Shown here: in pieces, positions 4,495 through 50,536 of the stretch
Layout: every line of letters begins with the position of its first letter
How positions within the stretch are numbered: the stretch's first letter is position 1
Origin: a virus
DNA: 64,000 bases
Direction: 5' to 3' (one strand)
Virus record (IMG/VR): IMGVR_UViG_3300036806_000217
Span: 23,341-87,340 of that record
Position numbers and translations under genes: made by a program
Notes under the pieces: generated by a model
What the model saw: the letters and a program-made list of their open reading frames with translations, nothing else
Told to the model about the DNA's origin: nothing
The model's database searches: none

Positions 4495-4905
4495 GTGAAC
4501 GCCACCGCCCGCCGCTCCGTCACCCGCCGGATCGCCACCACCCTCACCGCCGTCCTCGCCCTCCCGAAGACGGCGCTCTTCCGCCTCCTCAACGGCGCCG
4601 AGATCCAGCGCATGCTCGACCAGGGCGACCTGATCACGGTGAACACGGTCCTGGACGGTCTCGGCGTCGGCGTCGACTTCAAGGACGGCTACCGCTCCTG
4701 GACCGGACGCCACATCGCCCAGGCGTACCGGGTCGCCAACCAGCGCCAGCCCCTCAAGGCGTGGGTGCAGCACCGCACCACCGGCCGGTGGATCTTCGTC
4801 TACTGCTACACCCCCGGCGACGAATCGATCACCGCCGGACTGCGGATGTACTCGCGGACCGCGCACCTCGTACCGGTCAGCGCCACCTTCTCGGAGGCCG
4901 CCTAG
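4495..4905 (+). CDS. Hypothetical early protein, first gene after the control region
   Basis: 136 residues from a GTG with AGGGGGA eight bases upstream. The basic N-terminus (ARRSVTRR) leads into a hydrophobic/amphipathic stretch to about residue 35, then an acidic helix and a mixed C-terminal domain containing YRSWTGRHIAQAYR and RTTGRWIFVYCY. It could be membrane-associated. No family recognised. The TGCCAACT motif in its leader suggests control by the divergent neighbour. Confidence 0.75.
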   Translation: MNATARRSVTRRIATTLTAVLALPKTALFRLLNGAEIQRMLDQGDLITVNTVLDGLGVGVDFKDGYRSWTGRHIAQAYRVANQRQPLKAWVQHRTTGRWIFVYCYTPGDESITAGLRMYSRTAHLVPVSATFSEAA

Positions 4906-4933
4906 GACCGACTTCGCCGCCACCACCGCCACC

Positions 4934-5218
4934 GTGATCCTCGACGCCGCACCCCTGGTCGCCTCCGCAGTCGCGGACCTGCCCCACCCGGCCCTGGCCC
5001 GCTTCACCTACGCCCCCGACGGGGTCCGCCTGACCGTCGCCGACACCACCGCCCCCGAACGCGACCTGATCTTCACGCGGGTGTGCTGCGCGTTCGACGC
5101 CGCCGACTGGGACATCAGCGCCCGCCTCGCCGACGGCATCCGCGTCGGCGTCACCTTCCACCCGCCGTGGACCCGCACCCTCACCGGCGCACCCGACCTG
5201 CCGTTCCCGCCCCGCTGA
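4934..5218 (+). CDS. Hypothetical protein
   Basis: 94 residues from a GTG 28 bases after the previous stop. The protein is mostly beta-strand-like (ARFTYAPDGVRLTVADTT) with adjacent cysteines (RVCCAF) and a Pro-rich end containing TLTGAPDL, the same coding bases as in the gene at 2550. A frame open upstream of the GTG leaves the exact start uncertain. Confidence 0.65.
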   Translation: MILDAAPLVASAVADLPHPALARFTYAPDGVRLTVADTTAPERDLIFTRVCCAFDAADWDISARLADGIRVGVTFHPPWTRTLTGAPDLPFPPR

Positions 5219-23689: not shown

Positions 23690-24523
23690 CTACTCGGACG
23701 GCGGGGTGATGACGAACAGAGTGTGCGGCAGGCCCCGGCCGGACGCACCCGGACGCTTGCCGACCTCCGCAATCAGGCCCTGCTCAAGCAGTGCCCGGAC
23801 GTTGAGCGCGATTCCAGGCGCGGAGAGCGGGCTGATCTCCGCAAGGTCCGCCCGTGAGAAGAACTCCGAGCCGAAGCGCTCCCGTGCGACGGCCAGCAGC
23901 TTGTGTCCACGCGTATCCGGCGCGTCCCGCCTGGCCAGGTCCGACCGCTGCCCCTGGCGGACGTCCCGGCCCGCAAAGAAGGGTTCGATGAGCGGCCACG
24001 GGAAGAGCCACATGTTCGCGATGAAGCGCCACTGCTCGCGAGGAACGGGCCAATCCGGGTCGGACTGCGCGATCTGCATCACGCGGGCCCGGCTCAGGCC
24101 AACACGACGGCTGATCTCCGCCACGTTGACCCACTGCCCCTCGTAGGCGTGCCAGTCGACGGTCGAGATCCCGACGGCGCCGCTGGCCGAGACGAGCATC
24201 GGCGACGGCGTTCGGGAGAGATTGTGCAGCGGTCCTTCCGTCGTGATCGCTTCGACCTCGGCCACCGCCGCATCCTCGCGGGCGTCGAACCACTCAACGC
24301 TGCGCTCGAACCTGAGCGGCCACCACGTCGCCGCCGTGGTTGCGTGCTGGCTCCAGCGCAGCTTGAGATTGTTCGTGATCCCGACGTACAGGAGCTGGCC
24401 AAAGACGTCGTAGAACCGGTACAGCGCGGTCGTTCCGGGCTTGTGCTCCGGGGCGGGTAAGCCGGTGGACTCCCGCTCGGTCTCGCTAGTCCTCGGGGCT
24501 TCCTGGGGCGTGCCCTGTTTCAT
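23690..24523 (-). CDS. GIY-YIG nuclease-domain protein with C-terminal HTHs
   Basis: 277 residues; AAGGAAGAG precedes the ATG. The GIY-YIG fold is near the start: LYRFYD (34-39), LYVGIT (45-50), then NLKLRWSQH with the conserved Arg. A middle HTH (VNVAEISRRVGLSRARVMQI) is AlpA/MerR-like, and a C-terminal winged-helix-like part (about 205-270) follows. Such architecture fits a homing-type or regulatory nuclease that finds DNA by its own HTHs. The gene overlaps the AlpA-like gene upstream by 38 bases. Confidence 0.78.
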   Translation of the reverse strand: MKQGTPQEAPRTSETERESTGLPAPEHKPGTTALYRFYDVFGQLLYVGITNNLKLRWSQHATTAATWWPLRFERSVEWFDAREDAAVAEVEAITTEGPLHNLSRTPSPMLVSASGAVGISTVDWHAYEGQWVNVAEISRRVGLSRARVMQIAQSDPDWPVPREQWRFIANMWLFPWPLIEPFFAGRDVRQGQRSDLARRDAPDTRGHKLLAVARERFGSEFFSRADLAEISPLSAPGIALNVRALLEQGLIAEVGKRPGASGRGLPHTLFVITPPSE

Positions 24524-24743
24524 CTGCGGTCTCTTCCTTACGCTCTTCCAGATCGGTCCGTCGCCCCTGCTTGAGCCCGGCCAAGCGCTGTTCCCAGTAC
24601 GCCTCCAGGGAGGCGAGGGGGTAGCGAGGCACGGTGCTGCCCGGTGCCATGACTGCTTTCGGGAACGCCTGATCGGTGGCGGCCAGCCGATGGATGAGCT
24701 GTCGGCTGCGCTGTACGTGTGCGGCGAACTCGGTGACGGTCAT
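24486..24743 (-). CDS. AlpA/excisionase-like small HTH protein
   Basis: 85 residues from ATG 24743 with GGAGGGG upstream; ATG 24782 with GAGAGGA is equally possible (98 residues). TVTEFAAHVQRSRQLIHRLA then YPLASLEAYWEQRLAG gives an AlpA/HTH_17-type winged helix, and a charged tail follows. It resembles the HTH inside the GIY-YIG protein it overlaps, so the two may act together. An excisionase function is only possible, as no integrase is seen. Confidence 0.7.
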   Translation of the reverse strand: MTVTEFAAHVQRSRQLIHRLAATDQAFPKAVMAPGSTVPRYPLASLEAYWEQRLAGLKQGRRTDLEERKEETADETGHAPGSPED

Positions 24744-24856
24744 CGGATCGGGTGGCCCCTCCTGGCCCGGGGTGGGCGACATACGGACATCCTCTCAAGA
24801 AGGTGTTGCTGATGTAAAGGAAGTCGCGTAGCTTGGGACTCGCGACAACACGCAAA

Positions 24857-24965
24857 GGCCCCGACCGCTCGTGACAGATCGGCCGGGGCTGACAACGGGT
24901 CGTCCGGGCGGTGACACGCCCGGACGACCCTCAACCCCGACTCGGAGGTGACACTCCGGGTCGGG
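24857..24965 (+). ncRNA. Three tandem hairpins with identical GTGACA loops
   Basis: Hairpin 1 (24857-24890) is imperfect, hairpin 2 (24897-24930) has a perfect 14-bp stem, and hairpin 3 (24936-24965) has 12 pairs with one wobble. Each closes on exactly GTGACA (24871, 24911, 24948), while the stem sequences differ. They lie in the divergent gap, ending 31 bases before the gene at 24997. Loop conservation with stem covariation points to an RNA or cruciform recognised by a protein or antisense partner. Direction of transcription is inferred. Confidence 0.6.
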
Positions 24966-24996
24966 CATCCGCCACCTGATCTCACCAGGAGCGAAC

Positions 24997-25239
24997 ATGC
25001 TTGATCGTAGCCAGGAAGTTCCTGGTTCCGGCAGTCCCGCACCGGCCTCCACCCTCGGCGGCCCGGACACCATCACCGCCGCAGCCGCACGCACCCGACA
25101 CCTGCGCACCCCCGGCGACCGGAACCAGACCGGGTACGACTTCGACGGCGACGGGCAGCTCGTGCTCCGCGACGGCTGGGACTCGCACCACGCTGACCGC
25201 GCCTTCGGGCAGGGACCGGACGGCGGTAGCGCGGCATGA
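24997..25239 (+). CDS. Hypothetical small protein downstream of the hairpins
   Basis: 80 residues; CAGGAG precedes the ATG. The sequence is Gly/Pro/Asp-rich (GDRNQTGYDFDGDGQLVLRD) with little helix; the middle resembles a short Asp-rich turn. It may be a regulatory or leader protein. The stop overlaps the next ATG. Confidence 0.68.
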   Translation: MLDRSQEVPGSGSPAPASTLGGPDTITAAAARTRHLRTPGDRNQTGYDFDGDGQLVLRDGWDSHHADRAFGQGPDGGSAA

Positions 25240-25649
25240 GCGCCGCCGACCCGGACGCCAACCCCCGCCTCAAAGCGATCATCGCCCGCCACACCAACGA
25301 CATCGCATTCCTCGTCCCCGGATGCCCGACCGACGGCAACACCAGCATCGACGGCGTCACCCTCGGCGAACTCCTCGCCGACGCCCGCGACCACCTGGAG
25401 GCCATCGACGCCGACAACGCCAGCATCCTCAACGCCGCCCTCATCTACCTCGCCGACGCCCTCGACGCCGACAACGACACCGCCCAAGACGTGCTCCTCA
25501 GCTACGTCGACCACTACCTCACCGGCAGCGAAGATTCGGACGGCTTCATGGACGGCGTCGAAGACATGGCCCGCAAACTCGCCGCCGAGTACGGCCTCAG
25601 CTACCCCGACGGCGCCGTGCTCCACGACCAGGCGGCAGGTGCACGATGA
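25236..25649 (+). CDS. Hypothetical acidic protein
   Basis: 137 residues from an ATG in the previous stop. Helical and strongly acidic, with TLGELLADARDHLEAIDADN and DNDTAQDVLLSYVDHYLTG. Overlapping neighbours on both sides imply co-expression. No known family. Confidence 0.72.
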   Translation: MSAADPDANPRLKAIIARHTNDIAFLVPGCPTDGNTSIDGVTLGELLADARDHLEAIDADNASILNAALIYLADALDADNDTAQDVLLSYVDHYLTGSEDSDGFMDGVEDMARKLAAEYGLSYPDGAVLHDQAAGAR

Positions 25650-26569: not shown

Positions 26570-27466
26570 GTGGCCAAGACCGACGATCACCCGATCCACC
26601 CCTACGAGCGCGAGCTCAACATCGCGCTCGCGGTGATGTGCTGGGCCTCGGTAGCGATGGCCATCGGCTTCGAGGCAACTACGGCACTCCCCCTCGTCGC
26701 CAGTGAGCGAGTCCCGGCCGACGTGAGGATCAGCGATCTGATCGCCACGGGTGCCGTGGTGGCCATGGCCGCCTACGCCCTCCTGCTGGAGTGGGTCAAC
26801 CGTCACCACCCGTCCCGCCGCCGGGCCTGGCGCCGGTCAGGCTGGTCCTGCCAGGGAGTGCTACTGGCGATGTGTACCGCCGGCGCCATAGAGAAGCACC
26901 ACTACCTGGCGCTCCCTTGGATTGCCACGACGGCCGTCATGGGCCTGGGCAGTTGGAACCTCTGGATGCGTGGCCAACTACTGCCAGCCGAGGACCAGAA
27001 GGTCATCAACGAGCTGATCGCAGACAAGGAGCGCCGCGAAAGAGACGCAATCCGCGCCGCCGAACACCGCCGCCGCGAGACCCGCTTTCAGAAAGTCGCC
27101 GCCTCCTACCAGCCGGCCGGAGCCGCACCCCTGAGCGTTCCTGCCCTGAAGCCCGAAGTCGATCCGAAGCCCTGGCTCATCCCGGATGGAAAGCACAGCC
27201 CGGTCGTGTACTTCATCCAGAACGGCGACCGCGTCAAGATCGGCACGACGACGAACCTGCGCTCCCGGATCAGCGCCCTTTCGTTGCGGCCCACCGACAT
27301 CGTGCTGCTCGTCAACGGCGGACGACCGTTCGAGCAGGCACTCCACAAGCGCTTCGCCAGCGTGCGAGTCGGCAACACCGAGTGGTTCGCCAATTCCGGG
27401 CCGGTCGCCGAGTACATCGTCATCGAGGCTGCGCGGGCCCGAGCTATCGCCAAGTCGAAGGGATGA
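26570..27466 (+). CDS. Membrane protein with C-terminal GIY-YIG-like (T5orf172/MUG113-type) domain
   Basis: 298 residues from a GTG with GGAAG upstream. Four hydrophobic segments (about 17-36, 56-76, 92-108, 114-134) anchor the N-terminus; a charged helix (142-178) acts as a stalk. Residues 212-285 read VVYFIQNGDRVKIGTTTNLR, then FEQALHKRF and NTEWF, the signature of the T5orf172/MUG113 branch of GIY-YIG nucleases. The nuclease would sit on the inner face of the membrane. The next gene starts in its stop, linking it to the transfer-like module. Confidence 0.78.
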   Translation: MAKTDDHPIHPYERELNIALAVMCWASVAMAIGFEATTALPLVASERVPADVRISDLIATGAVVAMAAYALLLEWVNRHHPSRRRAWRRSGWSCQGVLLAMCTAGAIEKHHYLALPWIATTAVMGLGSWNLWMRGQLLPAEDQKVINELIADKERRERDAIRAAEHRRRETRFQKVAASYQPAGAAPLSVPALKPEVDPKPWLIPDGKHSPVVYFIQNGDRVKIGTTTNLRSRISALSLRPTDIVLLVNGGRPFEQALHKRFASVRVGNTEWFANSGPVAEYIVIEAARARAIAKSKG

Positions 27467-28380
27467 CCATGGACGAGATCGACGACGCCCCCGTCGCCTC
27501 GCCGGAGACCATCCGGCGCCTCATGCTGTTCGCGGTCATCCTGTCCATCGCCTCGACCGCCACAGCGTTCTGGCTCTCCTACGAGCACCTCCACGACGTC
27601 GCCAGCGGCCATGGCCTCAGCGCAGCCCGCGCCTGGGCATGGCCCGGCACGGTCGACACCTTCATCATCATCGGCGAGGTGATGATCCTCGTCGCCAACC
27701 TTCTCCGCAGGACCGACGGGTGGGCCATCTGCGTAACCGTCATCGGCTCCGTGGGCTCCGTCGCCCTGAACGTCGCTGGCGTCGGAGCGCACGCGGCGAT
27801 CATGACGTATATCGTCGCGGCGGTGCCGCCCTGCGGCGCGCTCATGTCCTTCGCGATTCTCATGCGGCAGATCAAGAAGGTCCTCACTCCACGACGGGAC
27901 GAGGCGGAGCCGTCGGCGGATGCAACGACGGATCAGCCCATCGCCGACGACGGAGCAGCCGACGGAAGCCGGCCACCCGTCGTCGGGAAGACCGTCGACC
28001 CGACGCCTCCCGACGCGACGGAAGCGGCTCGATCCGTCGTCGAGTCGACGCCTTCCGTCGACCTTCCCGACGCTTCCCCCGTCGCTGCATCCGTCGTCGA
28101 GAGGCCAGCCCAGCCGCCGACGACTCGTCGGCCGAAGGCGACCCGATCCGCCACCGGGAAGCGTCCGCCCCGTCGGTCTCTCGACGAGTGGGTGGAGATC
28201 GCCGGGCCGATCTTCCACGCCGAGTTCCAGCGCCTCCGCAGGAAGCCGACCGCCAATGAGTTTGCTCAGGCGATCGACCGGGCCGGCTTCGGCCTGCCCT
28301 CGGACACGGTGGCGAAGACGATCCGTTCGGAGATTCTCGACCGCGCGGACGTCCCGGCTCTGAGTGAGGAGGGGCAATGA
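27463..28380 (+). CDS. DUF2637 membrane protein (Spd-like)
   Basis: 305 residues; ATG in the previous stop, GAAGGG upstream. The N-terminal 135 residues match DUF2637: WLSYEHLHDVASGHGL, RAWAWPGTVDTFIIIGEVMI and two further TM helices (four in all, about 18-38, 60-80, 86-106, 110-134). A long Asp/Pro/Val linker (145-215), encoded by a CCGTCG repeat array, leads to a C-terminal basic domain with RSLDEWVEIAGPIFHAEFQR. DUF2637 proteins are hallmarks of Streptomyces conjugative plasmids and integrative elements, where they accompany Tra and Spd functions. Confidence 0.84.
   Translation: MTMDEIDDAPVASPETIRRLMLFAVILSIASTATAFWLSYEHLHDVASGHGLSAARAWAWPGTVDTFIIIGEVMILVANLLRRTDGWAICVTVIGSVGSVALNVAGVGAHAAIMTYIVAAVPPCGALMSFAILMRQIKKVLTPRRDEAEPSADATTDQPIADDGAADGSRPPVVGKTVDPTPPDATEAARSVVESTPSVDLPDASPVAASVVERPAQPPTTRRPKATRSATGKRPPRRSLDEWVEIAGPIFHAEFQRLRRKPTANEFAQAIDRAGFGLPSDTVAKTIRSEILDRADVPALSEEGQ
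27910..28096. repeat. CCGTCG repeat array inside the DUF2637 gene
   Basis: Eleven copies of CCGTCG or its complement start at 27910, 27926, 27948, 27960, 27977, 27992, 28016, 28034, 28055, 28079 and 28091, about 12-24 bp apart and in both orientations. They fall in the part encoding a low-complexity linker. Short repeated octamer-like sites beside traB are how Streptomyces plasmids mark the DNA that TraB binds; such a role here is inference. Confidence 0.5.
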
Positions 28381-28401
28381 CGCCTGGCTAGGTGATCTAC
28401 G

Positions 28402-28485
28402 ACGACGACAGCGACGACGTACCCCTGGGGTACCCCCCGTAGGCCCCTGACCTGACCCTATCCCCTCACGACGACAGCGACGACG
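28402..28485. repeat. 18-bp direct repeat flanking a palindrome
   Basis: ACGACGACAGCGACGACG occurs exactly at 28402-28419 and 28468-28485. Between them GTACCCCTGGGGTAC (28419-28433) is a perfect 7-bp-arm palindrome. The set lies in the 126-bp gap between the DUF2637 gene and the next gene, whose AAGGAG follows at 28495. It could be an operator or part of a cis-acting transfer site. Confidence 0.5.
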
Positions 28486-28506
28486 ACGCACCTCGAAGGA
28501 GACCCC

Positions 28507-29985
28507 GTGGCGGACACTCAGGCGCCGCCCGCGCCCGCACCGCAGACCGTGTACGTTCCCGTGCCCCAGCCGCCAGCCGTAACGGCGGGCTGGGCGGTTC
28601 CGGCTGGGCAGGCCCCGGCGAAGGAGCCGTCCGAGCGGAAGGGTCGCGGCCGCGGGATCCCGGCAGCGCCGGCATTGGCGGCCGCGGGCAACGCGACGGC
28701 GCTCGGCGTCACCTCGGCCTACGCCGCGGGCGGCTGGCCCGGCATGGCCGCAGCGGGCGGCGCTGCCGTGCTCGCCGCGGGCGGGGCGGTGGTGCACCGG
28801 CGCCGAGCGGTGAAGCGCAGCGCGGACATTCGCAAGGCACTGCGGGCCGCGGGCCTCGGCGGCGGCTCGCTCGGTTCCGGTGGCGGCCGCGGATTCGGCC
28901 TCGGTGGCGGGTCGTCTTCGCGCCGTGGCGGGTTGTTCGGTGGCGGGTCGGGTGGCGGCCGGAAGTCGGCGGCCGCGGGCTCGTCTCGTGGCGCCTCGGG
29001 TTCGCGTTCTGGTGGCGGGTCGACGGCTCCGTCCCGTGGCGGCCGCGCGGGTGGGTCGAACTCGCCGCGTGCCGGCAAGTCCGGGGCGGGCGCCAGCACC
29101 GGTTCGTCCGGTCGCCTGGGTCGGGCCCTGGACCGGATGCTCGGCGGCAGTGGCCAGAAGGCCGGCGTCGACAAGGCGGCCCGGAAGTCCGCGAGCGAGA
29201 CCGCTGCGGCGGCGAAGAGCGTCAAGGCGGCGCGGAAGGCGGCGAAGGCCGCGGCGAAGCAGGCCCGCAAGGATCTCGGCCTGCCGTCCCGCAGCAGCCG
29301 GCTCGCCGCGGCGTCCAAGCGCGGCGCCGGCCGTGCCTGGTCCAAGACGGCCAGTCCGCGGGCGGCTGCCCGTCGCCTCGCCGCCCGGAGCGTGCGGAAG
29401 GCCCGCGGCCTCACCGCCGACGGGCTTCGCTCGCTGCGCGCCGGGGTGTGGGGCCTGCTCAAGCACATGTCCTGGAAGAAGGGCGGCAAGCGGGCCCTGG
29501 CCGCGTGGAAGGCGCACCGCGCCAAGCGCAAGACCACCACGCCCGCCGCGCCGCCCACCCCGCCGATCGCGTCCACCGTCCGCCGACCCGCCAGTACGAC
29601 CCCCATCCGATCCTCTGGAGGACCCGGCATGTCCGGCTACCACTTCGTCGCACCCGCCACGGAAGGCGTCCGCGCCGCCGCGAACTACAACCCCACCGGC
29701 ATGCTGCAGGTCATCGAGGACTTCGCCGGGCTCTCCGAAGCCCTGGAGCTCCACGCCCAGGCCATGCGCGTGACCGTCGAGAACGCCGACGCGAAGTTCC
29801 CGCTGGCCCCGCAGGTCATCGACGTCATGCGGCAGGTCCACAACCTGCAGCTGAAGGCCGCCGAGCTCGCCAAGGAGCTCCAGCCCGCATCCCGCAAGCT
29901 CCACGAGGCCGACCTCGCCCGCCACTCCAGCCCCCGCAAGGGCCCGCAGGGCGAGCGCATGTGGGACATCGCCTCCAACAGCTAG
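28507..29985 (+). CDS. Large basic Gly/Ser-rich membrane protein of the transfer-like module
   Basis: 492 residues from a GTG with AAGGAG upstream. The layout is: Pro-rich start; two close hydrophobic segments (about 58-100); a Gly/Ser/Arg-rich unfolded region (115-205); a Lys/Ala/Arg-rich histone-like region (215-345); then, after GGPGMSGYHFVAP, a folded helical domain (about 375-485) with AELAKELQPASRKLHEADLA. The highly basic middle should bind DNA. In Streptomyces plasmids proteins of this kind lie just before traB. The ATG at 29629 could also give the C-terminal domain as a separate product. Confidence 0.76.
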   Translation: MADTQAPPAPAPQTVYVPVPQPPAVTAGWAVPAGQAPAKEPSERKGRGRGIPAAPALAAAGNATALGVTSAYAAGGWPGMAAAGGAAVLAAGGAVVHRRRAVKRSADIRKALRAAGLGGGSLGSGGGRGFGLGGGSSSRRGGLFGGGSGGGRKSAAAGSSRGASGSRSGGGSTAPSRGGRAGGSNSPRAGKSGAGASTGSSGRLGRALDRMLGGSGQKAGVDKAARKSASETAAAAKSVKAARKAAKAAAKQARKDLGLPSRSSRLAAASKRGAGRAWSKTASPRAAARRLAARSVRKARGLTADGLRSLRAGVWGLLKHMSWKKGGKRALAAWKAHRAKRKTTTPAAPPTPPIASTVRRPASTTPIRSSGGPGMSGYHFVAPATEGVRAAANYNPTGMLQVIEDFAGLSEALELHAQAMRVTVENADAKFPLAPQVIDVMRQVHNLQLKAAELAKELQPASRKLHEADLARHSSPRKGPQGERMWDIASNS

Positions 29986-30014
29986 TCCGCCGTCGCGCGG
30001 AGAAAGGCACGATC

Positions 30015-32135
30015 GTGGATCTCGACTGGGACGCCAAGCACGGAGCCGTCACCGGCTCCCTCAACACAGCCGGTGCCGCACTGGCCTTGGCGTCGATCGA
30101 ACACGTCGCCCACCTGCCGCTGTGGTCCGCCACCGCGGTAGCCGGCGCCGGACTGGTGGGCACCCACCTGGCCGGGGTCCGCAAGAAGGTCACCGGTGCG
30201 ACCCTCGCGCTGCGCGCGGCGTCCTGGATGGCCGTTGGCGGCTGGTGCTCCTGGGCCGCGGTCGAAGGTCCGTGGACGCGTGACGTCCTCGTGGCCCTCG
30301 CCGCCGGCGCCGTCGGACTGGGCGGCGCCATGGCCGGTGCGCACCACGTCGAGGAGAAGAAGGCGGAGGAGCAGGCCAAGGCCGAGGCCGCAGCGAACCT
30401 CGCCAGTCTGGACGGCAAGCGGCGGAAGGTCGCCGAGGAGTGGCAGGAGCGCATCGCGAAGGTGTGCACCGGTTCCACCGTCCAGATCACCGGCGTGGAG
30501 GAGTGGCCGTCCGGCGGCGGCTTCACCCTGGATGGCAACTGCCTGCACGGCACCAAGTGGCGCGACCTCAAGACCCACGAGGACGCGCTGGCCGCCGAGG
30601 CCCAGCTCCCGGAGGGCTGCGGCGTCGAGGTCAAGAAGGGCGCTCACCGCGGCGCTGTCCTCATGGACGTGGCCACCGTCAACGCCCTCATCGACGACTG
30701 CCCCTATCCGTCGGACTACTCGCCGCTGTCCATCAACGACCCGGTGTCTCAGGGCGTGTTCCGCGACGGCTCCAAGGCCGAGGTCCTCCTCCGCGAACTT
30801 ACCGGCCTGATCGCGGCCCGCCGCGGCGCCGGCAAGACCAACCTGATGAACGTGGGCATCGCCAACGGCGTGCGGATGGTCGACAACCTGGACTGGGTCA
30901 TCGACCTCAACGGCGGCGGCCTGGCCCTGCCGTGGCTGCACGCCTGGGAGGCGGCGGGCCGTCCGGGTCGGCCGCCGATCGACTGGGTTGCCGACACCCC
31001 GGCGAAGGCCCTGGCCATGGCGCAGGCCGCACTGCGGATCGCGAAGGCCCGCAAGCCCGGCTACAAGAAGCGGGAGATCGCGGCGAACGACGACAAGCTG
31101 CCCGTCGGCTCGGACGTCCCGGCGGTGACGATCAGGTGCGACGAGATCGCGGAGATCTTCTCGCCGCGCGCCCGCAAGAACGAGGTACTGAAGAGGACCG
31201 GGGACATCCTCATCCAGATCGTCGAGATCGCCCGCGCTGTCGCCATCAACGAGATCCTGGCGGCGCTGCGCGTCACCCAGGACGTGCTCGCCGAGCCGCA
31301 GGTCCTCAAGCAGTCCGGCCTGAAGATCGGCATGCAGTCCGACGAGGCCGAACTCGCCTACCTCTGCGGCTGGGGCGACAAGGTCTCCCCGGAGGACATC
31401 CCCTATCCGGGCTGCGGCGTCATGAAGATCGGCGAGGAGCCCGCACGCCCGTTCAAGGCGTACCGGCTCAAGCCCGCACAGATCGCCGACATCGTCGTCG
31501 CTACCAGCGGCCTGCGCCCCGAGCTCGACGAACTGTCCCGCCGCGCAGCCGGCCCGGCCTACGAAACCCGGTGGGACGGCATGGACCACATATTCGGCAT
31601 CGGCGACCTGCCCGAACGCGCAGGCGATGAGGACGGCGACGAAGACGGGGACGGCGAGGGCACCGAGGACTTCGCTGCGCCCCGCGGCTCCGGCGTCACC
31701 GCGAACTGGGGCACCGAGCCGCCGCGCGTCGACACCCAGGCCGCCCTCGACCAGGCCGACGCCGCCCGCGACGCCATCCGCAAGGCAGCCGACGAGGCAA
31801 CCAGCCGCGACGACGACCTCGACGCACAGTTCCAGGCCGTCCTCGAAAGCGGCGGCGCCCTGTGGAAGCCGCCAGCCGACGTGCCGACCCGCACGGGCCA
31901 GCCCATGCCCACCCCGGGCATCAGTGACGACGCCCGCTGGGCCGCCGTGTTCTCCATCGTCGCGAAGGCCGGTCCGGCCGGGATCAGCCCCACGGCGATC
32001 CGCGAGTTCTTCACCCAGATCAGCCCCGGCCTCGAGGCACCGCACCGGGCGACGATCACGACATGGGTCCAGGCCGAGCCGCAGATTCACCAGCCCGTCA
32101 AGGGCAAGTACGCCCTGCGCCCCGAGGAGAAGTGA
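30015..32135 (+). CDS. TraB/FtsK-like DNA translocase
   Basis: 706 residues from a GTG with AGAAAGG upstream. N-terminal hydrophobic helices (about 15-110) are followed by a charged stalk and a RecA-like motor: Walker A AARRGAGKTN (about 274-283), LDWVIDLNGGGL, and Walker B AVTIRCDEIAEI. An acidic linker (DEDGDEDGDGEGTED) leads to a C-terminal winged-helix-like domain (from about 635, PTAIREFFTQISPGLEAPHR). Membrane anchor, FtsK-type ATPase and C-terminal wHTH is the layout of Streptomyces TraB, which moves double-stranded DNA between hyphae. In a phage it may act in transfer, segregation or genome pumping. Confidence 0.85.
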   Translation: MDLDWDAKHGAVTGSLNTAGAALALASIEHVAHLPLWSATAVAGAGLVGTHLAGVRKKVTGATLALRAASWMAVGGWCSWAAVEGPWTRDVLVALAAGAVGLGGAMAGAHHVEEKKAEEQAKAEAAANLASLDGKRRKVAEEWQERIAKVCTGSTVQITGVEEWPSGGGFTLDGNCLHGTKWRDLKTHEDALAAEAQLPEGCGVEVKKGAHRGAVLMDVATVNALIDDCPYPSDYSPLSINDPVSQGVFRDGSKAEVLLRELTGLIAARRGAGKTNLMNVGIANGVRMVDNLDWVIDLNGGGLALPWLHAWEAAGRPGRPPIDWVADTPAKALAMAQAALRIAKARKPGYKKREIAANDDKLPVGSDVPAVTIRCDEIAEIFSPRARKNEVLKRTGDILIQIVEIARAVAINEILAALRVTQDVLAEPQVLKQSGLKIGMQSDEAELAYLCGWGDKVSPEDIPYPGCGVMKIGEEPARPFKAYRLKPAQIADIVVATSGLRPELDELSRRAAGPAYETRWDGMDHIFGIGDLPERAGDEDGDEDGDGEGTEDFAAPRGSGVTANWGTEPPRVDTQAALDQADAARDAIRKAADEATSRDDDLDAQFQAVLESGGALWKPPADVPTRTGQPMPTPGISDDARWAAVFSIVAKAGPAGISPTAIREFFTQISPGLEAPHRATITTWVQAEPQIHQPVKGKYALRPEEK

Positions 32136-43634: not shown

Positions 43635-44117
43635 ATGCCCGGCCCCCTGCCCAAGCCTGCCGAAGAGCGCCAGCGGCGCAACCACCGCGACCTGGGCATC
43701 GTCACCCTGCCTGGCGGCGGCATGCCGTCCTCCCCCAACGGCGTCTGCGCCGCTGCGAAAGATGCCTGGGATTCGTACTGGGGCGATGTGGTCGCCGGCG
43801 TCGTGCGTCCCGGCGACGCTTCGCTGGTGGACCGCTGGGTACGCAACATCGACCGCTACCACCGAATCATCGGTCTGGCCGACGCCGAGCCCGTCGTGAC
43901 CGGCTCTACGGGCCAGATGAAGCCGAACGGCCTGTACGACCTGGCGTTCAAGATCGAGGCGTCGATCAAGGCGGATGAGCAGCAGCTCGGGATCGGGCCT
44001 CTGAATCGCCTGCGCCTGGGCGTGAAAATCGCCGAAGGTGCGAAGTCCCTCGCCGACCTGACCGCCGAAGCCGAGGGGGGCGACGATGACGACCCTCGCG
44101 CCTACCTCACCGGCTGA
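43635..44117 (+). CDS. Terminase small subunit, P27-like
   Basis: 160 residues; GGGAGG precedes ATG 43635. It opens MPGPLPKPAEERQRRNHRD, the usual start of P27-type small terminases, and continues with helices that bind DNA and oligomerise (WDSYWGDVV, VDRWVRNIDRYHRIIG, GLYDLAFKIEASIKADEQQL). It recognises the packaging site and guides the large subunit. Its end overlaps the large subunit gene by 32 bases. Confidence 0.88.
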   Translation: MPGPLPKPAEERQRRNHRDLGIVTLPGGGMPSSPNGVCAAAKDAWDSYWGDVVAGVVRPGDASLVDRWVRNIDRYHRIIGLADAEPVVTGSTGQMKPNGLYDLAFKIEASIKADEQQLGIGPLNRLRLGVKIAEGAKSLADLTAEAEGGDDDDPRAYLTG

Positions 44118-45657
44118 CGTCCTCGGCTGGCCCACCGACGTCCCAGCGCCGCTGTCCTCGCCGCCATTGACGAACGCCCCGAGCGACGGCCCGAAGGTGA
44201 TCCGCTGGATCGAGCGGCACTGCCGCTACGGCGAGGGTGACCGATTCGGGCAACCGGTCATGCTGGAGCTGTTCCAGAAGCTGTTCCTGATCTGGCTGTT
44301 CGAGCTGAAGCAGGACGGCACTCGCCGGTACCGGCGGGCATTGCTGGAGGTACCGAAGGGGAACGGAAAGACTCCGATCGCCGCATGGGTGGCCGCGTAT
44401 CTGCTGGCGACGCAGCGCTCGGCGATCATCCCGGTGGCCGCAGCTTCCTACGACCAGGCCGAGCTGCTGTTCGGCGACATGCGCACAGCCGTCGCCGAGT
44501 CACCCACCCTGGGCCCGCTGTTCAACACGTTCGAAGGCGAGATCCAGGTCAAGGACGGCCCCGGCCGGGCCTACAAGGTCGCCGCGGTCGCCGGCACGAA
44601 CGATGGCCAGCGGCCGTCCGCATTCTTTGCCGACGAGATCCACGAGTGGATCGGCAACAAGGCCCGGGTGCACCTGGTCATCGCCAACGGCGCGGCCAAG
44701 CGCGTCGGCTCGATCGTGGTGAACACGACCACGCCCGGCGCGGACCTGGACACGATGGCGGGCAAGCTCCACGAGTACGGCGTGAAGGTCAACGCGGGCG
44801 AGATTGACGACCCGGAGTTCTTGTTCGTCTGGTGGGGCTGCCCGGAGGACCGCTACGACCTGACCGACCCCGATTCCGACGGCTTCCAGGAGCGTCTGTT
44901 CCGGGCGGTCCGGGACGCGAACCCGGCCGCCGACAAGTTCCTGTCCGTCCCGGACGTCGCCGCCCGTTTCTACCAGACCGCGCGGCACGAGTTCGTGCGC
45001 TACCACCTCGGCATGTGGACCACCGTCGCCGAGCGGTGGATGCCGACGGGCGCCTGGGAGGGCTGCGAGAAGCCTGGCGCCGTGCCGGACGGGGCCGAGG
45101 TCTGCCTGGGCTTCGACGGGTCCTTCAACAACGACTCGACAGCCCTGGTCGTCGTATCGTGCCCGGTCGACGAAGACGAACTACCGCATGTGGACGTCGT
45201 CGAGGCGTGGGAGCGCCCCGAGAACAACGTGGGCGACTGGCAGGTGCCGATCCTGGACGTCGAGGCGGCGATCCGGGCGGCCTGCACGCGCTGGGCAGTC
45301 CGCGAGATCGTCTGCGACCCCTATCGATGGGCCCGCACCTACCAGGTGCTGGAAGACGAGGGGCTGCCGATCGTCGAGTTCCCGCAGTCGCCCGCTCGCA
45401 TGATCCCGGCGACCACGAGGTTCTACGAGGCCACCGTCAACAAGCAGCTGACGCAGTCCGGTGACGCTCGGCTGGCCCGGCATCTCGGGAACTGCGCCAT
45501 CAAGGTCGACTCGCGCGGCTCGCGGCTCACCAAGGAACACCGCCACTCCCGCCGCAAGATCGACTTGGCTGTTGCCGCGGTGATGGCCCTCGAACGTGCC
45601 TGCCAGGAACCCGAACGCAAACCCCAGGTCGAGTTTTTCAGCTGGGCCGAGCTGTAG
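44086..45657 (+). CDS. Terminase large subunit
   Basis: 523 residues. ATPase domain: Walker A LEVPKGNGKT (about 88-97) and Walker B AFFADEIHEW (about 182-191), with the coupling motif VVNTTTPG. Nuclease domain from about 335: GFDGSFNNDST, CDPYRWA and KIDLAVAAVMAL carry the acidic metal ligands. It translocates DNA into the prohead and cuts it. The start lies inside the small-subunit gene, so coupled translation is likely. Confidence 0.93.
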   Translation: MTTLAPTSPADVLGWPTDVPAPLSSPPLTNAPSDGPKVIRWIERHCRYGEGDRFGQPVMLELFQKLFLIWLFELKQDGTRRYRRALLEVPKGNGKTPIAAWVAAYLLATQRSAIIPVAAASYDQAELLFGDMRTAVAESPTLGPLFNTFEGEIQVKDGPGRAYKVAAVAGTNDGQRPSAFFADEIHEWIGNKARVHLVIANGAAKRVGSIVVNTTTPGADLDTMAGKLHEYGVKVNAGEIDDPEFLFVWWGCPEDRYDLTDPDSDGFQERLFRAVRDANPAADKFLSVPDVAARFYQTARHEFVRYHLGMWTTVAERWMPTGAWEGCEKPGAVPDGAEVCLGFDGSFNNDSTALVVVSCPVDEDELPHVDVVEAWERPENNVGDWQVPILDVEAAIRAACTRWAVREIVCDPYRWARTYQVLEDEGLPIVEFPQSPARMIPATTRFYEATVNKQLTQSGDARLARHLGNCAIKVDSRGSRLTKEHRHSRRKIDLAVAAVMALERACQEPERKPQVEFFSWAEL

Positions 45658-45674
45658 TGCCCGAAGGGGGTTCC

Positions 45675-45863
45675 GTGAAACTCCCCCGCCTGCGCATGCC
45701 GAAGATCCCGCGCCCGGCAAAGCCTCAGCGCATCGCCTCGGACCTGGTCGAGATCGCGGGCATGGGCTGCCTGGTCACCGCGGCGTGGTGGTGGCTGCCG
45801 ATCGCCGGGCTGATCGCCCTGGGGCTGGCGCTGTTGCTGATCGGCTGGGTGATGGACCGATGA
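45675..45863 (+). CDS. Small single-TM protein between terminase and portal
   Basis: 62 residues from GTG 45675 with AAGGGGG upstream; GTG 45657, overlapping the terminase stop, is an alternative. A basic, Pro-rich start (LPRLRMPKIPRPAKPQRI) is followed by one long hydrophobic helix (about 24-60). The stop overlaps the portal start. Its role in head assembly is unclear; a membrane tether is possible. Confidence 0.68.
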   Translation: MKLPRLRMPKIPRPAKPQRIASDLVEIAGMGCLVTAAWWWLPIAGLIALGLALLLIGWVMDR

Positions 45864-47113
45864 GCCTGCTCCGCAGGGCCTCCGAGAAGCGGTTCTTCGT
45901 CCCCTCCGGGGCCGGCGACCCCTGGGCGATCCCGTCGAACGGCTCACTGGCCGCGATGACGGCCTCCGGGGTGCCGGTCACCGAGGACACCGCCATGCAG
46001 TTGCTGGCCGTGGCCGCGAGCGTGCGGATCCTGGCCAACGCCGTCGCCTGCCTGCCGTTCGACGCCATTCGCATGAAGGGGGCGCTCAGGGAGACCCTGG
46101 AGCCGCCCCCGCCGATCGTCGCAGACCCTTTCGGCGGCGCCAACAACGCGGCGTGGCCGACGCAGCGCGCCGGCATCTCGCAGATGATGGTCAGCCTCCT
46201 CCTGCGGGGCAACGGCTACGGCATCGTGACGAGCCGGGACCGCATGATGCGCCCGTCCCGCGTCCGGGTGCTGCACCCGGACCGGGTGCAGTGCGAGTTC
46301 GACCAGTACGGCGCCCGCGTCTACGAGGTCAACCGAAAGCCGGTGGACGCCGAAGACATGGTGCATCTGGTGGGCATGTCCTACCCGGAGTCCCCGACTG
46401 GGATCAGCGTCATCTCCCATGCACGCAATGCCATCGGATTGGGTCTGGCCGCGGAGGAGTTCGGCAGCCGCTTCTTCGGCTCCGGCGCCCACATGTCGGG
46501 CATCGTCACCGTGCCCGGCGACCTGGACAAGGAGCGCGCCCGACAGCTCAAGGAGTCGTTCACCTCCTCGCACGGCGGCCTGCAGAACTCCCACACGGTG
46601 GGGATCCTGTCGGGCGGCGCCGAGTGGAAGCCCATCAGCGTATCCCCGGAGGACGCGCAGTTCCTGGGCACGCGGGCGGCCCAGAACCTGGACATCGCGA
46701 TGCTGTTCGGGGTGCCGCCGCACATGCTCGGCCAGGTCGACCGCACCACCTCGTGGGGCACCGGTATCGAGCAGCAGTCGCTGGGGTTCCTGCGCTACAC
46801 CCTGGCCCCGTGGCTGGGCTGCTTCGAGGACGCCTGGTCGGCGATGCTTCCCAAGCCGCAGGTTGCCCGCTTCAACGTCGACGCCCTGCTGCGTACCGAC
46901 ACGGCCGGCCGGTTCGGCATCTATCTGAACGCCCGCAATGCGGCGCTGATGACGCCGGACGAGATCCGCGCGCTGGAGAACCTGGCGCCGCTTCCCAATG
47001 GTGCGGGCCAGGACCCGTTCGCGCCGCTGAACTCCGCGCACACCACCGATCCGGGATGGACGCCCGGACAGCCCGAGCCAGAACCCCAGCCTGCGACCGG
47101 TCAGGAGCCGTAG
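45860..47113 (+). CDS. Portal protein, HK97 family
   Basis: 417 residues, ATG in the previous stop. The family pattern is clear: VAASVRILANAVACLPF, then SLLLRGNGYGIV, GISVISHARNAIGLGLAAEE with the long stem helix, IAMLFGVPPHMLG and RTTSWGTGIEQQSLGFLRYT near the wing, ending in MTPDEIRALENLAPLPNGAG. It forms the 12-fold channel through which DNA passes. The next mini-gene repeats its C-terminal motif. Confidence 0.93.
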   Translation: MSLLRRASEKRFFVPSGAGDPWAIPSNGSLAAMTASGVPVTEDTAMQLLAVAASVRILANAVACLPFDAIRMKGALRETLEPPPPIVADPFGGANNAAWPTQRAGISQMMVSLLLRGNGYGIVTSRDRMMRPSRVRVLHPDRVQCEFDQYGARVYEVNRKPVDAEDMVHLVGMSYPESPTGISVISHARNAIGLGLAAEEFGSRFFGSGAHMSGIVTVPGDLDKERARQLKESFTSSHGGLQNSHTVGILSGGAEWKPISVSPEDAQFLGTRAAQNLDIAMLFGVPPHMLGQVDRTTSWGTGIEQQSLGFLRYTLAPWLGCFEDAWSAMLPKPQVARFNVDALLRTDTAGRFGIYLNARNAALMTPDEIRALENLAPLPNGAGQDPFAPLNSAHTTDPGWTPGQPEPEPQPATGQEP

Positions 47114-47250
47114 TGGACCTCCCATCTATCGCTGACCGCTATGCCGCCAGCCCGTCAGGCCTGCTGACAGTCAACGAGATCCGCGCGATCGAAAACCTGC
47201 CGCCGCTCCCTTCTTCCGGACCGGCCTCCGACCCCACGGAAGGGGAGTGA
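47113..47250 (+). CDS. 45-residue mini-protein carrying a portal C-terminal motif
   Basis: The GTG overlaps the portal stop, and the frame stops two bases before the protease start. It reads SGLLTVNEIRAIENLPPLPS, nearly the portal ending LMTPDEIRALENLAPLP. This may be a duplicated portal tail that became a separate gene, or a natural piece split off. Function unknown. Confidence 0.6.
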   Translation: MDLPSIADRYAASPSGLLTVNEIRAIENLPPLPSSGPASDPTEGE

Positions 47251-47251
47251 G

Positions 47252-48220
47252 ATGGACCTGTCCGCACGGGCCGCTCGGCCCACTGAACTCCAGCGCCGCC
47301 AGATGCCGTTCCGCGACGTCGAGCTCCGAGCGGCCCCGAACGGCACCGGCGGCGAGACGCTGACCTTCACCGGGTACGCCTGCGTGACCGAGGTCGGCTA
47401 CGAGATGCAGGACTGGCTCGGCCCGTTCACCGAAGTCGTCCGCGGTGGGTCGTTCGCCAAGACCCTGTCCGAGGGCGCGGACGTGCCGTTCCTGATCAAC
47501 CACGGGGGCATGACCTTGGCGAGGACCAAGTCGGGCACGCTGCAGCTGGCCGAGGACACCACTGGCCTGCACACCGAGGCACGTCTGGATCCGGCCAACT
47601 CGGGCGTGCGGGACCTGCAGTCCGCGATGGACCGCAAGGACATGGACGAGATGTCGTTCGCGTTCTGGGTGACGCGCCAGCAGTGGTCCCCGGACTACGA
47701 CCAGCGCGACATTCTGGAGGTCAACCTCAACAAGGGCGACGTGAGCGTCGTCAACTTCGGGGCCAACCCCAACACCGCCGGGGCGACTCTCAACTCGCGG
47801 GACCTGGCCGCCCACCTGGAGCGGCTGTCCGAAGAAGAGCGCCGTGAGGTCTTCGACCGTCTTGCCGCCGAGTTCGACCAGGCACCGGTCATCCTCACCA
47901 CCCGCGCACGGGCCGGGGAGTGGGCCAAGGAGCGCTTCGCCGAGCTCCGCGACGGCAAGCAGTTGTCCGCTGCCACCATGTCGACCCTCCAGGAGATCCT
48001 GGACATGGTCGCCACTGCGGACACCGCCGTCGACCAGGCACAGGTCGTCCTGTCCGACCTGATGGGCGTCCCCAATCCGGACGACACCCAGGACGCAGAG
48101 TCCGACGACGAGCCGGACGAGGACCCTGGCGACGCCCCGGCCAGCGACGAGGACGACCCGCAGGAGAACGGAAACGACCTCGGCCTCTACGAGGCCAGGC
48201 ACCGGCTTCTCGCCCTGTAG
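47252..48220 (+). CDS. HK97-type prohead protease
   Basis: 322 residues; AAGGGGAG precedes the ATG. Residues 15-185 match caudoviral prohead protease (S78): FTGYACVTEVGYEMQDWLGP, VPFLINHGGMTLART with the catalytic His, and MDEMSFAFWV with the catalytic Ser. The C-terminal 130 residues are helical and end in an acidic region (DDEPDEDPGDAPASDEDDP) and could act as an internal scaffold. It trims the capsid precursor. Confidence 0.9.
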   Translation: MDLSARAARPTELQRRQMPFRDVELRAAPNGTGGETLTFTGYACVTEVGYEMQDWLGPFTEVVRGGSFAKTLSEGADVPFLINHGGMTLARTKSGTLQLAEDTTGLHTEARLDPANSGVRDLQSAMDRKDMDEMSFAFWVTRQQWSPDYDQRDILEVNLNKGDVSVVNFGANPNTAGATLNSRDLAAHLERLSEEERREVFDRLAAEFDQAPVILTTRARAGEWAKERFAELRDGKQLSAATMSTLQEILDMVATADTAVDQAQVVLSDLMGVPNPDDTQDAESDDEPDEDPGDAPASDEDDPQENGNDLGLYEARHRLLAL

Positions 48221-48250
48221 TACCGGCGGACCCAGTCCGCCCCACAGACC

Positions 48251-48280
48251 AGCCCCGGACGGCCCACGCCGCCGGGGCTT
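48251..48280 (+). terminator. Hairpin between protease and capsid genes
   Basis: AGCCCCGG (48251-48258) pairs with CCGGGGCT (48272-48279), and TTTC follows. It lies 120 bp before the capsid start and may be a partial terminator or processing site that lets capsid mRNA be made separately. Confidence 0.5.
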
Positions 48281-48399
48281 TCGCCTGCCCGGCTCGCGCC
48301 GGAGCCCGCGCCGGACCCCTGATCAGGGCACCACCCGGGCCACCACCCGTCACCACGGCAGGCACACCGCAACACACCCCCGAGAGAAGGGAAGTCCCC

Positions 48400-49758
48400 G
48401 TGAACAAGCGGGAGATGATCCAGGCTCTCCAGGAGCGGCGTGCCGAGATCCGCAAGAACCTCGACGCCATCCTGGAGACCGTCCACGCCGAGAAGCGCAC
48501 CGCGCTGACCGACGAGGAGAAGGCCGGCTTCGACGCCGGCGAGACCGAGATCCGTGAGATCGACGAGCGCATCGACGAACTCGACACCCAGATCCGCTCC
48601 GACGAGGCCGCCGCCACCATCGCCAAGCGCTACAACGGCCTCCCCAACGCCCGGGTGACCGACCCGCAGATCTACACCAAGCGCGGCAACGGCCACTCCT
48701 ACTTCCGGGACCTGTACGTGGCCCGGCAGAAGGGCGACCGCGAGGCCCTGGAGCGCCTGGACCGCAACAACAAGATGGTCGCCGACGCCAAGGGCGAGCA
48801 GCGCGCCATCTCCACGGGTGCCGGCGCGGGCGGCGAGTTCGTGCCGCCCCTGTGGCTGGAGAACGAGTTCATCGCGTTCGTCCGCCCCGGCCGGATCACC
48901 GCGAACCTGTGCCGCCAGGGCGACGTGCCGCCCGGCACCGACTCCATCAACATCCCGAAGATCCTCACCGGTACCGCGACGGCCCCCCAGGCGACGCAGA
49001 ACTCCGGCGTGCAGCAGACCGACCTGACCACCACCTCGGTGTCCAGCCCGGTCGTGACCATCGCGGGTGGCCAGACGGTCAGCCTCCAGCTGATCGAGCA
49101 GTCGCCGCTCAACATCGACGACGTGGTCCTCGGTGACCTCGCCGCCGACTACGCCAAGCAGCTCGGCACGCAGGTGCTGTCCGGCTCCGGCTCCAGCGGC
49201 CAGGTCACCGGCATGTTCACCCTGGGCGGCACCACCTCGGTGACCTGGACCCAGGCCACCCCGGCGCTGGGCGGCGCGGGCGGCCTGTACGCGAAGATCG
49301 CATCGGCGATCTCCTCGATCCACACCAGCCGCTTCATGCCCCCGACCGCGATCATCATGCACCCGCGCCGCTGGGCCTGGGCTGAGTCGCAGTCCGACGC
49401 CAACGGCCGCCCCCTGGTCGTGCCGGAGGCCGGCGGCCCCTGGAACGTCGCGGGCAACCTCGACGAGCAGGCCTCGCAGGGTCTGGTCGGCCGGATGCTC
49501 GGTCTGCCGGTGTATGTCGACGCCCTGATCCCGGTCAACGGCGGCACCGGCACCAACCAGGACACGATCATCGTCGCGAAGATGGACGACCTGTGGCTGT
49601 GGGAGGGCGACGTGCGCGCCGAGGCCTTCCAGCAGACCTACGCCAACCAGCTTTCGGTGTTCGTCCGCCTGTACAACTACGCCGCGTTCCAGGCCGGCCG
49701 CTACGCGCCGTCCACCGCGCTGATCACCGGCACCGGCGCCGTTACGCCGACGTTCTGA
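48400..49758 (+). CDS. Major capsid protein, HK97 fold
   Basis: 452 residues from a GTG with AGAAGGGA upstream. The first about 90 residues are a coiled-coil delta/scaffold part (LQERRAEIRKNLDAILETVH). The HK97-fold shell follows: GGEFVPPLWLENEFIAFVRP, VTIAGGQTVSLQLIEQSP, then ADYAKQLGTQVLSGSGSSGQ and TAIIMHPRRWAWAESQSD. The protease upstream should remove the N-terminal part. A strong hairpin follows the stop. Confidence 0.93.
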   Translation: MNKREMIQALQERRAEIRKNLDAILETVHAEKRTALTDEEKAGFDAGETEIREIDERIDELDTQIRSDEAAATIAKRYNGLPNARVTDPQIYTKRGNGHSYFRDLYVARQKGDREALERLDRNNKMVADAKGEQRAISTGAGAGGEFVPPLWLENEFIAFVRPGRITANLCRQGDVPPGTDSINIPKILTGTATAPQATQNSGVQQTDLTTTSVSSPVVTIAGGQTVSLQLIEQSPLNIDDVVLGDLAADYAKQLGTQVLSGSGSSGQVTGMFTLGGTTSVTWTQATPALGGAGGLYAKIASAISSIHTSRFMPPTAIIMHPRRWAWAESQSDANGRPLVVPEAGGPWNVAGNLDEQASQGLVGRMLGLPVYVDALIPVNGGTGTNQDTIIVAKMDDLWLWEGDVRAEAFQQTYANQLSVFVRLYNYAAFQAGRYAPSTALITGTGAVTPTF

Positions 49759-49763
49759 TCCCT

Positions 49764-49792
49764 GGTCCGGCCCGGGATCACCGGGCCGGACC
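49764..49792 (+). terminator. Hairpin after the capsid gene
   Basis: GGTCCGGCCCGG (49764-49775) and CCGGGCCGGACC (49781-49792) form a perfect 12-bp stem with loop GATCA, six bases after the capsid stop. It could stop part of transcription or protect the capsid mRNA 3' end. Confidence 0.62.
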
Positions 49793-49810
49793 CTCCCTCA
49801 AGGAGGCGGC

Positions 49811-50155
49811 ATGGCCGCGAACACCCTGGTCGCATCTGCGGCCCGCACCGTCACCGGATCCTCGGCCGCCATCGCGGTGGGCTCCGGGGCGGCAACGCTG
49901 GAGCTGGAGCTGGAGGTCACCGTCGCGACGGGAACGTCGCCGACCCTGGTCCTCAGTGTCCAGTGGTCCGACGACGGTACGAACTTCGGCAACAACGACG
50001 CCTCTGCGGACGCCTTCGCGTCGGTGGCCGCGGTCGGCAACGTCACCAAGTCCATCCCGGTGCGGGCCCCGTACATGCAGCTGACATGGACGATCGGCGG
50101 CACCACCCCGTCGTTCACGTTCAGCGTCATCGACGTAGCCAGCAACGTCATCTGA
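49811..50155 (+). CDS. Decoration-like small beta protein, copy 1
   Basis: 114 residues; AAGGAGG precedes the ATG. An Ig-like/beta-sandwich pattern is visible: ANTLVASAARTVTGSSAAIA, ELEVTVATGTSPTLVLSVQW, MQLTWTIGGTTPSFTFSV. The gene at 50216 is a clear paralogue. Position after the capsid gene suggests a capsid decoration or cement protein. Confidence 0.76.
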   Translation: MAANTLVASAARTVTGSSAAIAVGSGAATLELELEVTVATGTSPTLVLSVQWSDDGTNFGNNDASADAFASVAAVGNVTKSIPVRAPYMQLTWTIGGTTPSFTFSVIDVASNVI

Positions 50156-50163
50156 TCCCGCCC

Positions 50164-50195
50164 CAGGGAGGCGCACCGACCGGTGCGCCTCCCTG
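50164..50195 (+). terminator. Long hairpin between the duplicated genes
   Basis: A 15-bp perfect stem runs from CAGGGAGGCGCACCG (50164-50178) to CGGTGCGCCTCCCTG (50181-50195) with a 2-base gap at the tip. It probably acts as a terminator or RNA-stability element between the two copies. Confidence 0.62.
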
Positions 50196-50215
50196 TTGCC
50201 TGAAAGGGGCCCGGA

Positions 50216-50536
50216 ATGGCCAACACCCTGGTTGCCGGTGCCGCCCGGACCGTATCGGGCAACTCCGGGCCGCTGATCGTCGGCTACAGCCCGCTGAACA
50301 TCGAGGTCGAGGTCACCGCAGCATCGGGAACGACACCGTCGCTGACGCTGGCCGTGCAGTGGTCGGTGGACGGCGTCAACTTCGCCCCGGTGGACACGAC
50401 TCCGGACCAGTTCGCGGCGATCACTGCGGTCGGCAACGACCTCAAGCAGCTCATCGTCAAGGGCTCCTGGATGCAGGTCGTTTGGACGATCACGGGGACC
50501 ACTCCGAGTTTCACCTTCTCCGTTTCCGCTGGCTGA
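50216..50536 (+). CDS. Decoration-like small beta protein, copy 2
   Basis: 106 residues; AAGGGG precedes the ATG. It aligns along its whole length with the previous gene: ANTLVAGAARTVSGNSGP, TAASGTTPSLTLAVQWSVDG, MQVVWTITGTTPSFTFSV. The two are tandem duplicates that have diverged, perhaps to occupy different capsid sites. Confidence 0.76.
   Translation: MANTLVAGAARTVSGNSGPLIVGYSPLNIEVEVTAASGTTPSLTLAVQWSVDGVNFAPVDTTPDQFAAITAVGNDLKQLIVKGSWMQVVWTITGTTPSFTFSVSAG

Follow-up and report, generated by a model that had tools for sequence, protein, structure and literature searches.

Three consecutive hairpins with different stems and one common loop lie between two divergent genes of a viral DNA, which raises the question of what function would keep a loop constant while its stems vary. 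The window, by which we mean the whole 64-kb stretch analysed, is part of an 87-kb IMG/VR record; it encodes terminase, portal, head protease and tape-measure proteins and therefore comes from a tailed actinophage or prophage. The original prediction, made from the sequence by itself, described three hairpins presenting GTGACA, about 40 bp apart, on unrelated stems of which the second was perfect over 14 bp. This description proved accurate, with coordinates right to one base, stem sequences unrelated to one another, a second stem paired at 14 of 14 positions and loop starts spaced by 40 and 37 nt. In each hairpin GTGACA makes up the entire 6-nt loop, so that across the array the loops are kept and the arms vary:

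24858-24889, no strand assigned: hairpin 1; 13 stem positions, 11 of them Watson-Crick; loop GTGACA on the plus strand, TGTCAC on the minus strand
24897-24930, no strand assigned: hairpin 2; perfect stem, 14/14; loop GTGACA on plus, TGTCAC on minus
24936-24965, no strand assigned: hairpin 3; 12 stem positions, 11 Watson-Crick and one G-T; loop GTGACA on plus, TGTCAC on minus

The 214-nt intergenic gap holding the array folds 5.4-5.6 standard deviations below its shuffles on both strands. GTGACA or TGTCAC occurs only 7 times in the 64-kb window. When the window and about 90 kb of other loci were scanned for pairs of hairpins within 150 nt that share a loop of at least 5 nt, the only hit besides the window array was the homologous array of locus L007. 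The array matches no family in Rfam 15 (at the gathering score or, for relatives, at E ≤ 1).

The array is flanked on one side by a divergent excisionase/HTH-like gene and on the other by an operon of small ORFs and GIY-YIG-like, DUF2637 and FtsK-like proteins:

24486-24782, minus: small divergent excisionase/HTH-like protein, likely a regulator (phrog_66), with homologues divergent to most arrays
24997-25239, plus: operon ORF 1, 80 aa, of no known family
25236-25649, plus: 137-aa ORF, 81% identical in L007, where it stands behind an array with different loops
26570-27466, plus: membrane protein with a T5orf172/MUG113 (GIY-YIG-like) domain
27463-28380, plus: DUF2637-type (SpdB-like) membrane protein, assigned by tblastn to annotated DUF2637 proteins
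30015-32135, plus: FtsK/SpoIIIE-like protein (phrog_31069)

Judged by gene content, on which the link to transfer rests, the operon is a phage-borne transfer module of the actinomycete integrative/conjugative-element kind. The earlier placement of the array upstream of a transfer-like module thus agrees with the DUF2637/FtsK-type operon found there. One record thereby combines a tailed-phage structural module (44086-60285) with the DUF2637/FtsK module (26570-32135), that is, a phage with conjugative-element-like transfer genes.

Covariance-model searches added 22 arrays to the collection. With few exceptions these come from genomes, phages or mobile elements of Streptomyces, and they too sit between a small, divergently oriented DNA-binding gene and a transfer operon of the DUF2637/FtsK type. 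L007 was found by protein search with the 137-aa gene, and its homologous leader has three hairpins in which every loop is GTTGCA; L027, with loops GTTGCA, came from a DUF2637 search. The first covariance model comprised these two arrays and that of the window, and it retrieved L004 (GTCGCA, interrupted by the contig end) together with L144, which belongs to Streptomyces sp. SID11385, and L148-L151, likewise in Streptomyces genomes. A nine-array model then yielded L158-L167, L183-L184 and L192-L193; the E-values of these searches rest on short calibrations. The Streptomyces genome that started the model search was supplied by a strict pattern for the ribosome-binding-site region, whose 64 matches on genome contigs were all chance. 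L152 is a chance match and not an array. No array was present in the 301 Micromonosporaceae genomes (0/301), and no close DNA relative of the window was found in plasmids or phages. Two other triple hairpins were seen: one at L025:1942-2050, with loop GTGAG on similar stems (direct repeats), is unlike the window array, and one at L042:4337-4560, with loop GCAGCAG on different stems, apparently lies within coding sequence.

Comparison of the relatives showed that stems and loops evolve by different rules. In the nine-array alignment 93% of cells are paired and both sides have changed in 24 of 44 pairs, against a shuffle mean of 12.1 and at most 5 when the partner was slid; fitting of this alignment to the structure inflates the covariation numbers, but the slid controls are still far lower. 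Stem covariation is also seen in the alignment of three arrays. The loops are identical within the array in 21 of 23 cases, distributed over the classes GTTGCA (7 arrays), GTCGCA (7), GTGACA (4), GTTGGA (1), CTGACA (1) and GTAGCG (1). Shuffling of loops among arrays (100,000 shuffles) gave a mean of 2.4 and a maximum of 9 homogeneous arrays, a contrast inflated by relatedness. The two non-homogeneous arrays are L151 and L192, the former of which, beside unrelated genes, may be decaying.

Loop changes between related elements are concerted. The window (GTGACA) and L007 (GTTGCA), whose operon genes are mostly 65-85% identical, differ in the same two bases of all three loops, and L150 (GTGACA) and L184 (CTGACA), with genes 60-76% identical, differ in base 1 of all three. 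Since the stems within an array are unlike, recent duplication of hairpins does not explain the loop identity. Exchange of a whole regulatory cassette is possible for the window/L007 switch because the divergent gene is also much diverged there (40% identical); across elements this gene follows loop class only in part. The original prediction regarded the loop as a repeated recognition sequence on structured nucleic acid, proposed a covariation analysis in relatives, and counted drifting loops on persisting stems against itself. That analysis finds strong stem covariation and the opposite of drift, with loops that differ between elements and change together within an array, and so upholds the recognition-sequence idea.

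Where the hairpins stand relative to transcription signals was examined on both strands. The plus-strand features are:

24806-24834, plus: sense promoter-like region with -35 TTGCTG (24806-24811), 17 nt and -10 TAGCTT (24829-24834), called from sequence
24841-24996, plus: predicted sense leader of the transfer operon, with ends placed by promoter and start codon
24975-24989, plus: hairpin 4, CCTG-N7-CAGG, which partly sequesters the Shine-Dalgarno AGGAG (24987-24991)

The promoter-like region and the ribosome-binding-site hairpin also fall within the 214-nt gap. Across leaders the order is hairpin 3, then a CCTG-N-CAGGAG hairpin with the Shine-Dalgarno, then the start codon, and hairpin 4 is kept in nearly all arrays and in leaders with a single hairpin. 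In 13 of 17 arrays a sense TANNNT lies 14-23 nt before the array start, and a TTGNNN embedded in a palindrome often precedes it by 16-18 nt. The promoter-like region does not match the E. coli consensus. With a predicted sense -10 upstream and the Shine-Dalgarno hairpin and start codon downstream, the array fills, by position, the 5' leader between sense promoter and ribosome-binding site. The spacers between hairpins are A-rich on the plus strand, which also fits a function of the sense RNA. In L144, L148, L150, L160, L163 and L164, element-specific palindromes overlap the sense promoter region and are probably operators of the divergent regulator.

The minus strand carries a second set of signals, with the -10 box inside the downstream gene:

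25004-25009, minus: predicted antisense -10 box TACGAT, a TANNNT at fixed offset in the leaders; predicted start at about 24998, opposite the start codon
24850-24998, minus: predicted antisense RNA of about 149 nt with three loops TGTCAC and a fold of -92 kcal/mol
24852-24857, minus: CTTTGC (GCAAAG on plus), a short U tract that would follow hairpin 1 in the predicted antisense RNA

Of 24 leaders (18 with arrays and 6 with a single hairpin, two of these six near-identical), 23 carry a minus-strand TANNNT a little way into the first ORF, at 17-23 nt from the Shine-Dalgarno anchor, whereas shuffling gave a mean of 2.8 and a maximum of 10. No other TANNNT occurs in 80 nt of the leaders on either strand. 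Under equal scoring the box is present in 16 of 18 arrays but at only 6 of 950 other starts with a Shine-Dalgarno in the same DNA. Because this region was left outside the covariance search models, the antisense -10 is independent evidence; since neither the hexamers (TACGAT, TACAGT, TAGAGT, TACTAT, TAAGGT, TAGATT, TACCGT and others) nor the N-termini they help to encode are alike, the box is not simply protein conservation. An A stands six bases downstream of it in 19 of 23 leaders. The later find L193 has the box, L192 is without it and L144 has only CAGGAT. In S. coelicolor, 80% of the mapped start sites have TANNNT as their -10 motif, and 256 antisense start sites have been mapped (PMC4895711). 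No -35 for the antisense promoter is conserved across leaders, and a generic scan of the leaders found no consensus promoter or terminator.

The predicted antisense 3' end would consist of hairpin 1 and a U tract too short for the terminator scan, which did not detect it. Of 17 arrays, 15 have the U tract on the minus strand and two, L164 and L183, lack it; over all 17, the 5 nt that follow hairpin 1 contain on average 3.1 T, with tails resembling TTTGTG. The minus strand folds better than the plus strand in 14 of 18 arrays. The tails and this folding difference are suggestive, and stem mismatches read on the minus strand are G-U in 28 cases against A-C in 15, a weak bias (about p = 0.07, symmetric count). 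Single-hairpin leaders (L039, L046, L056, L004 and plasmid pSITFR-21c) also have the Shine-Dalgarno hairpin and the antisense -10, so that the antisense arrangement, as read from these signals, is wider than the triple array. Such leaders, with a CCTGC-N-ACAGGAG hairpin and an antisense TANNNT before transfer-type operons, were noted in L046, L049, L039, L040, L056, L004:1084-1139 and L185:4600-4690.

The reading we favour, at a probability of roughly 0.6, and also the simplest, is that the array forms the part common to a sense and an antisense RNA, the latter repressing the DUF2637/FtsK operon by loop kissing, in element-specific classes. The sense RNA would be the 5' leader of the transfer operon (about 24841-24996, plus). 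Leftward transcription from a promoter in the operon's first codons (-10 TACGAT, 25009-25004, minus) would produce an antisense RNA of about 150 nt that begins opposite the start codon, covers the ribosome-binding site, folds three hairpins with complementary loops (UGUCAC in the window) and probably ends after hairpin 1. Kissing of sense and antisense RNA at any of the three identical sites would nucleate pairing, and the resulting duplex would occlude the ribosome-binding site and repress the operon. Because the hexamer is element-specific, silencing would be limited to the own loop class: an element is expected to silence transfer genes of its class in vivo, resident or incoming, and to tend to ignore the others. 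In computed pairings of loops with loop complements, cognate combinations reach about -6 to -8 kcal/mol, while non-cognate ones mostly stay weaker than -2.5 kcal/mol, with the exceptions of GUUGCA with anti-GUCGCA (-5.8) and of GUGACA with CUGACA in either direction; the GUUGCA and GUCGCA classes may thus cross-talk. The original prediction had listed an antisense target with three kissing loops, which is close to this best-supported reading, as only one of several options.

Nothing in cis-encoded antisense pairing by itself demands identity of all three loops. They may be kept alike by any-to-any kissing, by a loop-binding protein or by trans action on other leaders. In one alternative the sense leader alone matters: an RNA-binding protein encoded by the element would bind the loops as tandem sites and control translation or antitermination, as at ANTAR targets or lambda boxB. 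Such a protein would account for loop identity better than antisense pairing does, and three identical hexaloops with short linkers, in element-specific versions and in a leader, resemble the tandem hexaloop hairpins that ANTAR proteins bind in leaders (PMC3369931). However, ANTAR dual hairpins need an A as the first and a G as the fourth loop base, whereas here the first base is G or C in every homogeneous class (GTGACA, CTGACA, GTTGCA, GTCGCA, GTTGGA, GTAGCG) and the fourth is G or A. The conserved antisense -10 would be left unexplained, pairing on the minus strand is at least as good, and no RNA-binding family recurs among neighbour genes, so we consider a protein of this kind improbable. 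A search for an ANTAR domain or gene in the element, whose positive control also gave no signal, found none. A neighbour-gene family as the explanation of loop class was rejected, no RNA-binding family being recurrent. The minus-strand RNA might instead be a long 5' leader of the divergent regulator gene (24782-24486, minus), with overlapping divergent mRNAs in an excludon-like arrangement and hairpins acting in both leaders. The regulator lies directly downstream of the array on that strand in the window and most elements, the antisense promoter is directed towards it, and in the loop-switched window/L007 pair it has diverged further than most operon genes (40% against 65-85% identity). The short U tract after hairpin 1 in most arrays nevertheless points to an end before the regulator is reached, a sense promoter and operator intervene, and the divergent gene has its own Shine-Dalgarno-like sequence, which makes this arrangement unlikely.

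The array might act as DNA, either as an origin (single-strand or transfer) or as a cruciform, to which a Rep or Tra protein binds. In favour of this, the stems pair about equally well on both strands, the elements encode FtsK-like transfer proteins and a leader hairpin of Streptomyces phage OnionKnight (L186) has the complementary loop TGCGAC. Yet the site is fixed between promoter and ribosome-binding site together with a conserved antisense -10, the 22 kb examined of L005 and L006, relatives that carry FtsK, contain no array, and the loop motif forms no clusters elsewhere in the elements; we regard a DNA role as very unlikely. Iterons, clt/TRS and a single-strand origin were rejected as DNA-only readings, there being no repeat clusters outside the array. 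No positive evidence emerged for the protein sponge, protein translational operator or replication/transfer origin that had also been offered at the outset. GC-rich hairpins are common in Streptomyces DNA, which would favour an account by ordinary terminators or chance hairpins, but the comparative data contradict it: loops are identical in 21 of 23 arrays, stems covary, the position is just before a start codon and the sense strand lacks U tracts. No hairpin followed by a U run of at least 5/8 was detected at the array. The initial dismissal of terminators is borne out by these observations, and we give that account hardly any credence.

Accounts of how DNA transfer is controlled in Streptomyces integrative elements, plasmids and phages centre mainly on protein repressors. 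An antisense RNA of the favoured kind would resemble, in its three stem-loops and in pairing begun by loop contacts, ColE1 RNAI, whose three loops are not known to share one sequence and whose target is a replication primer, whereas here it is a transfer-operon leader with its ribosome-binding site. In the ColE1 RNAI/RNAII system, which employs a three-stem-loop antisense RNA, loop-loop contacts start pairing and loop changes alone create compatible groups (PMC9458437). In RNAI of the I-complex plasmids IncK1 and IncK2, changes in the top loop, even of a single base, set specificity while stem changes do not (PMC10724649), although that RNA is one stem-loop controlling rep translation. FinP, antisense to the traJ leader of F-like plasmids, and RepX of RSF1010 (RepX/repA) are stem-loop antisense RNAs that sequester the site where translation of their target, a transfer or a replication gene, begins (PMC8136791). 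They share with the predicted RNA the leader-complementary stem-loops over a translation start, but have two stem-loops rather than three and no described triple identical loop; FinP moreover uses the FinO chaperone, which is not seen here; neither RNA is related in sequence to the array, and the array occurs in actinobacterial elements. With covarying stem-loops and a putative -10 (without a -35) at the start of the target gene, the array would belong among cis-antisense RNAs of the FinP/RNAI kind. The sps palindromes, targets of SpdA2, occur as 2-3 repeats near spread genes of Streptomyces plasmids and have the motif CGTCACGTGACG (PMC4170104). That motif contains GTGAC and its repeats also lie near spread genes; it is, however, a conserved 12-bp palindrome bound as double-stranded DNA, while in the array the arms vary and the loop is conserved. 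Literature searches found no RNA of the triple-identical-loop kind, and three identical loops per RNA in element-specific versions appear to be new.

A wider form of the antisense reading, which we put forward only tentatively, is that the arrays represent a new triple-loop family that provides phages and conjugative elements of Streptomyces with an RNA code of immunity or incompatibility. Each RNA would carry one hexamer seed in three copies, the hexamer would sort elements into mutually exclusive groups, and its action would extend in trans to further leaders. Such trans action would explain why the three loops must stay identical. A candidate trans target is found in L163 (G940:C10), where a second leader precedes a small ORF and diverges from a GntR-type gene about 705 nt upstream of the array; this leader has a perfect 14-bp hairpin with the loop GTCGCA, as in the L163 array, and GTCGCACC beside the Shine-Dalgarno. 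Apart from this one hairpin, free copies of the loop octamer that could be trans targets or antisense seeds show no excess elsewhere in the elements. If the antisense reading is right, the thrice-repeated hexamer would predict which elements silence each other, and the identical-loop rule would be a new design principle for antisense RNAs. Loop swaps could draw directly on the six classes found in nature, whose pairing energies are largely separate. In L186 the gap at 4749-4943, flanked by a divergent DNA-binding gene and by a gene for a membrane protein, holds a hairpin whose loop, TGCGAC, is the complement of GTCGCA.
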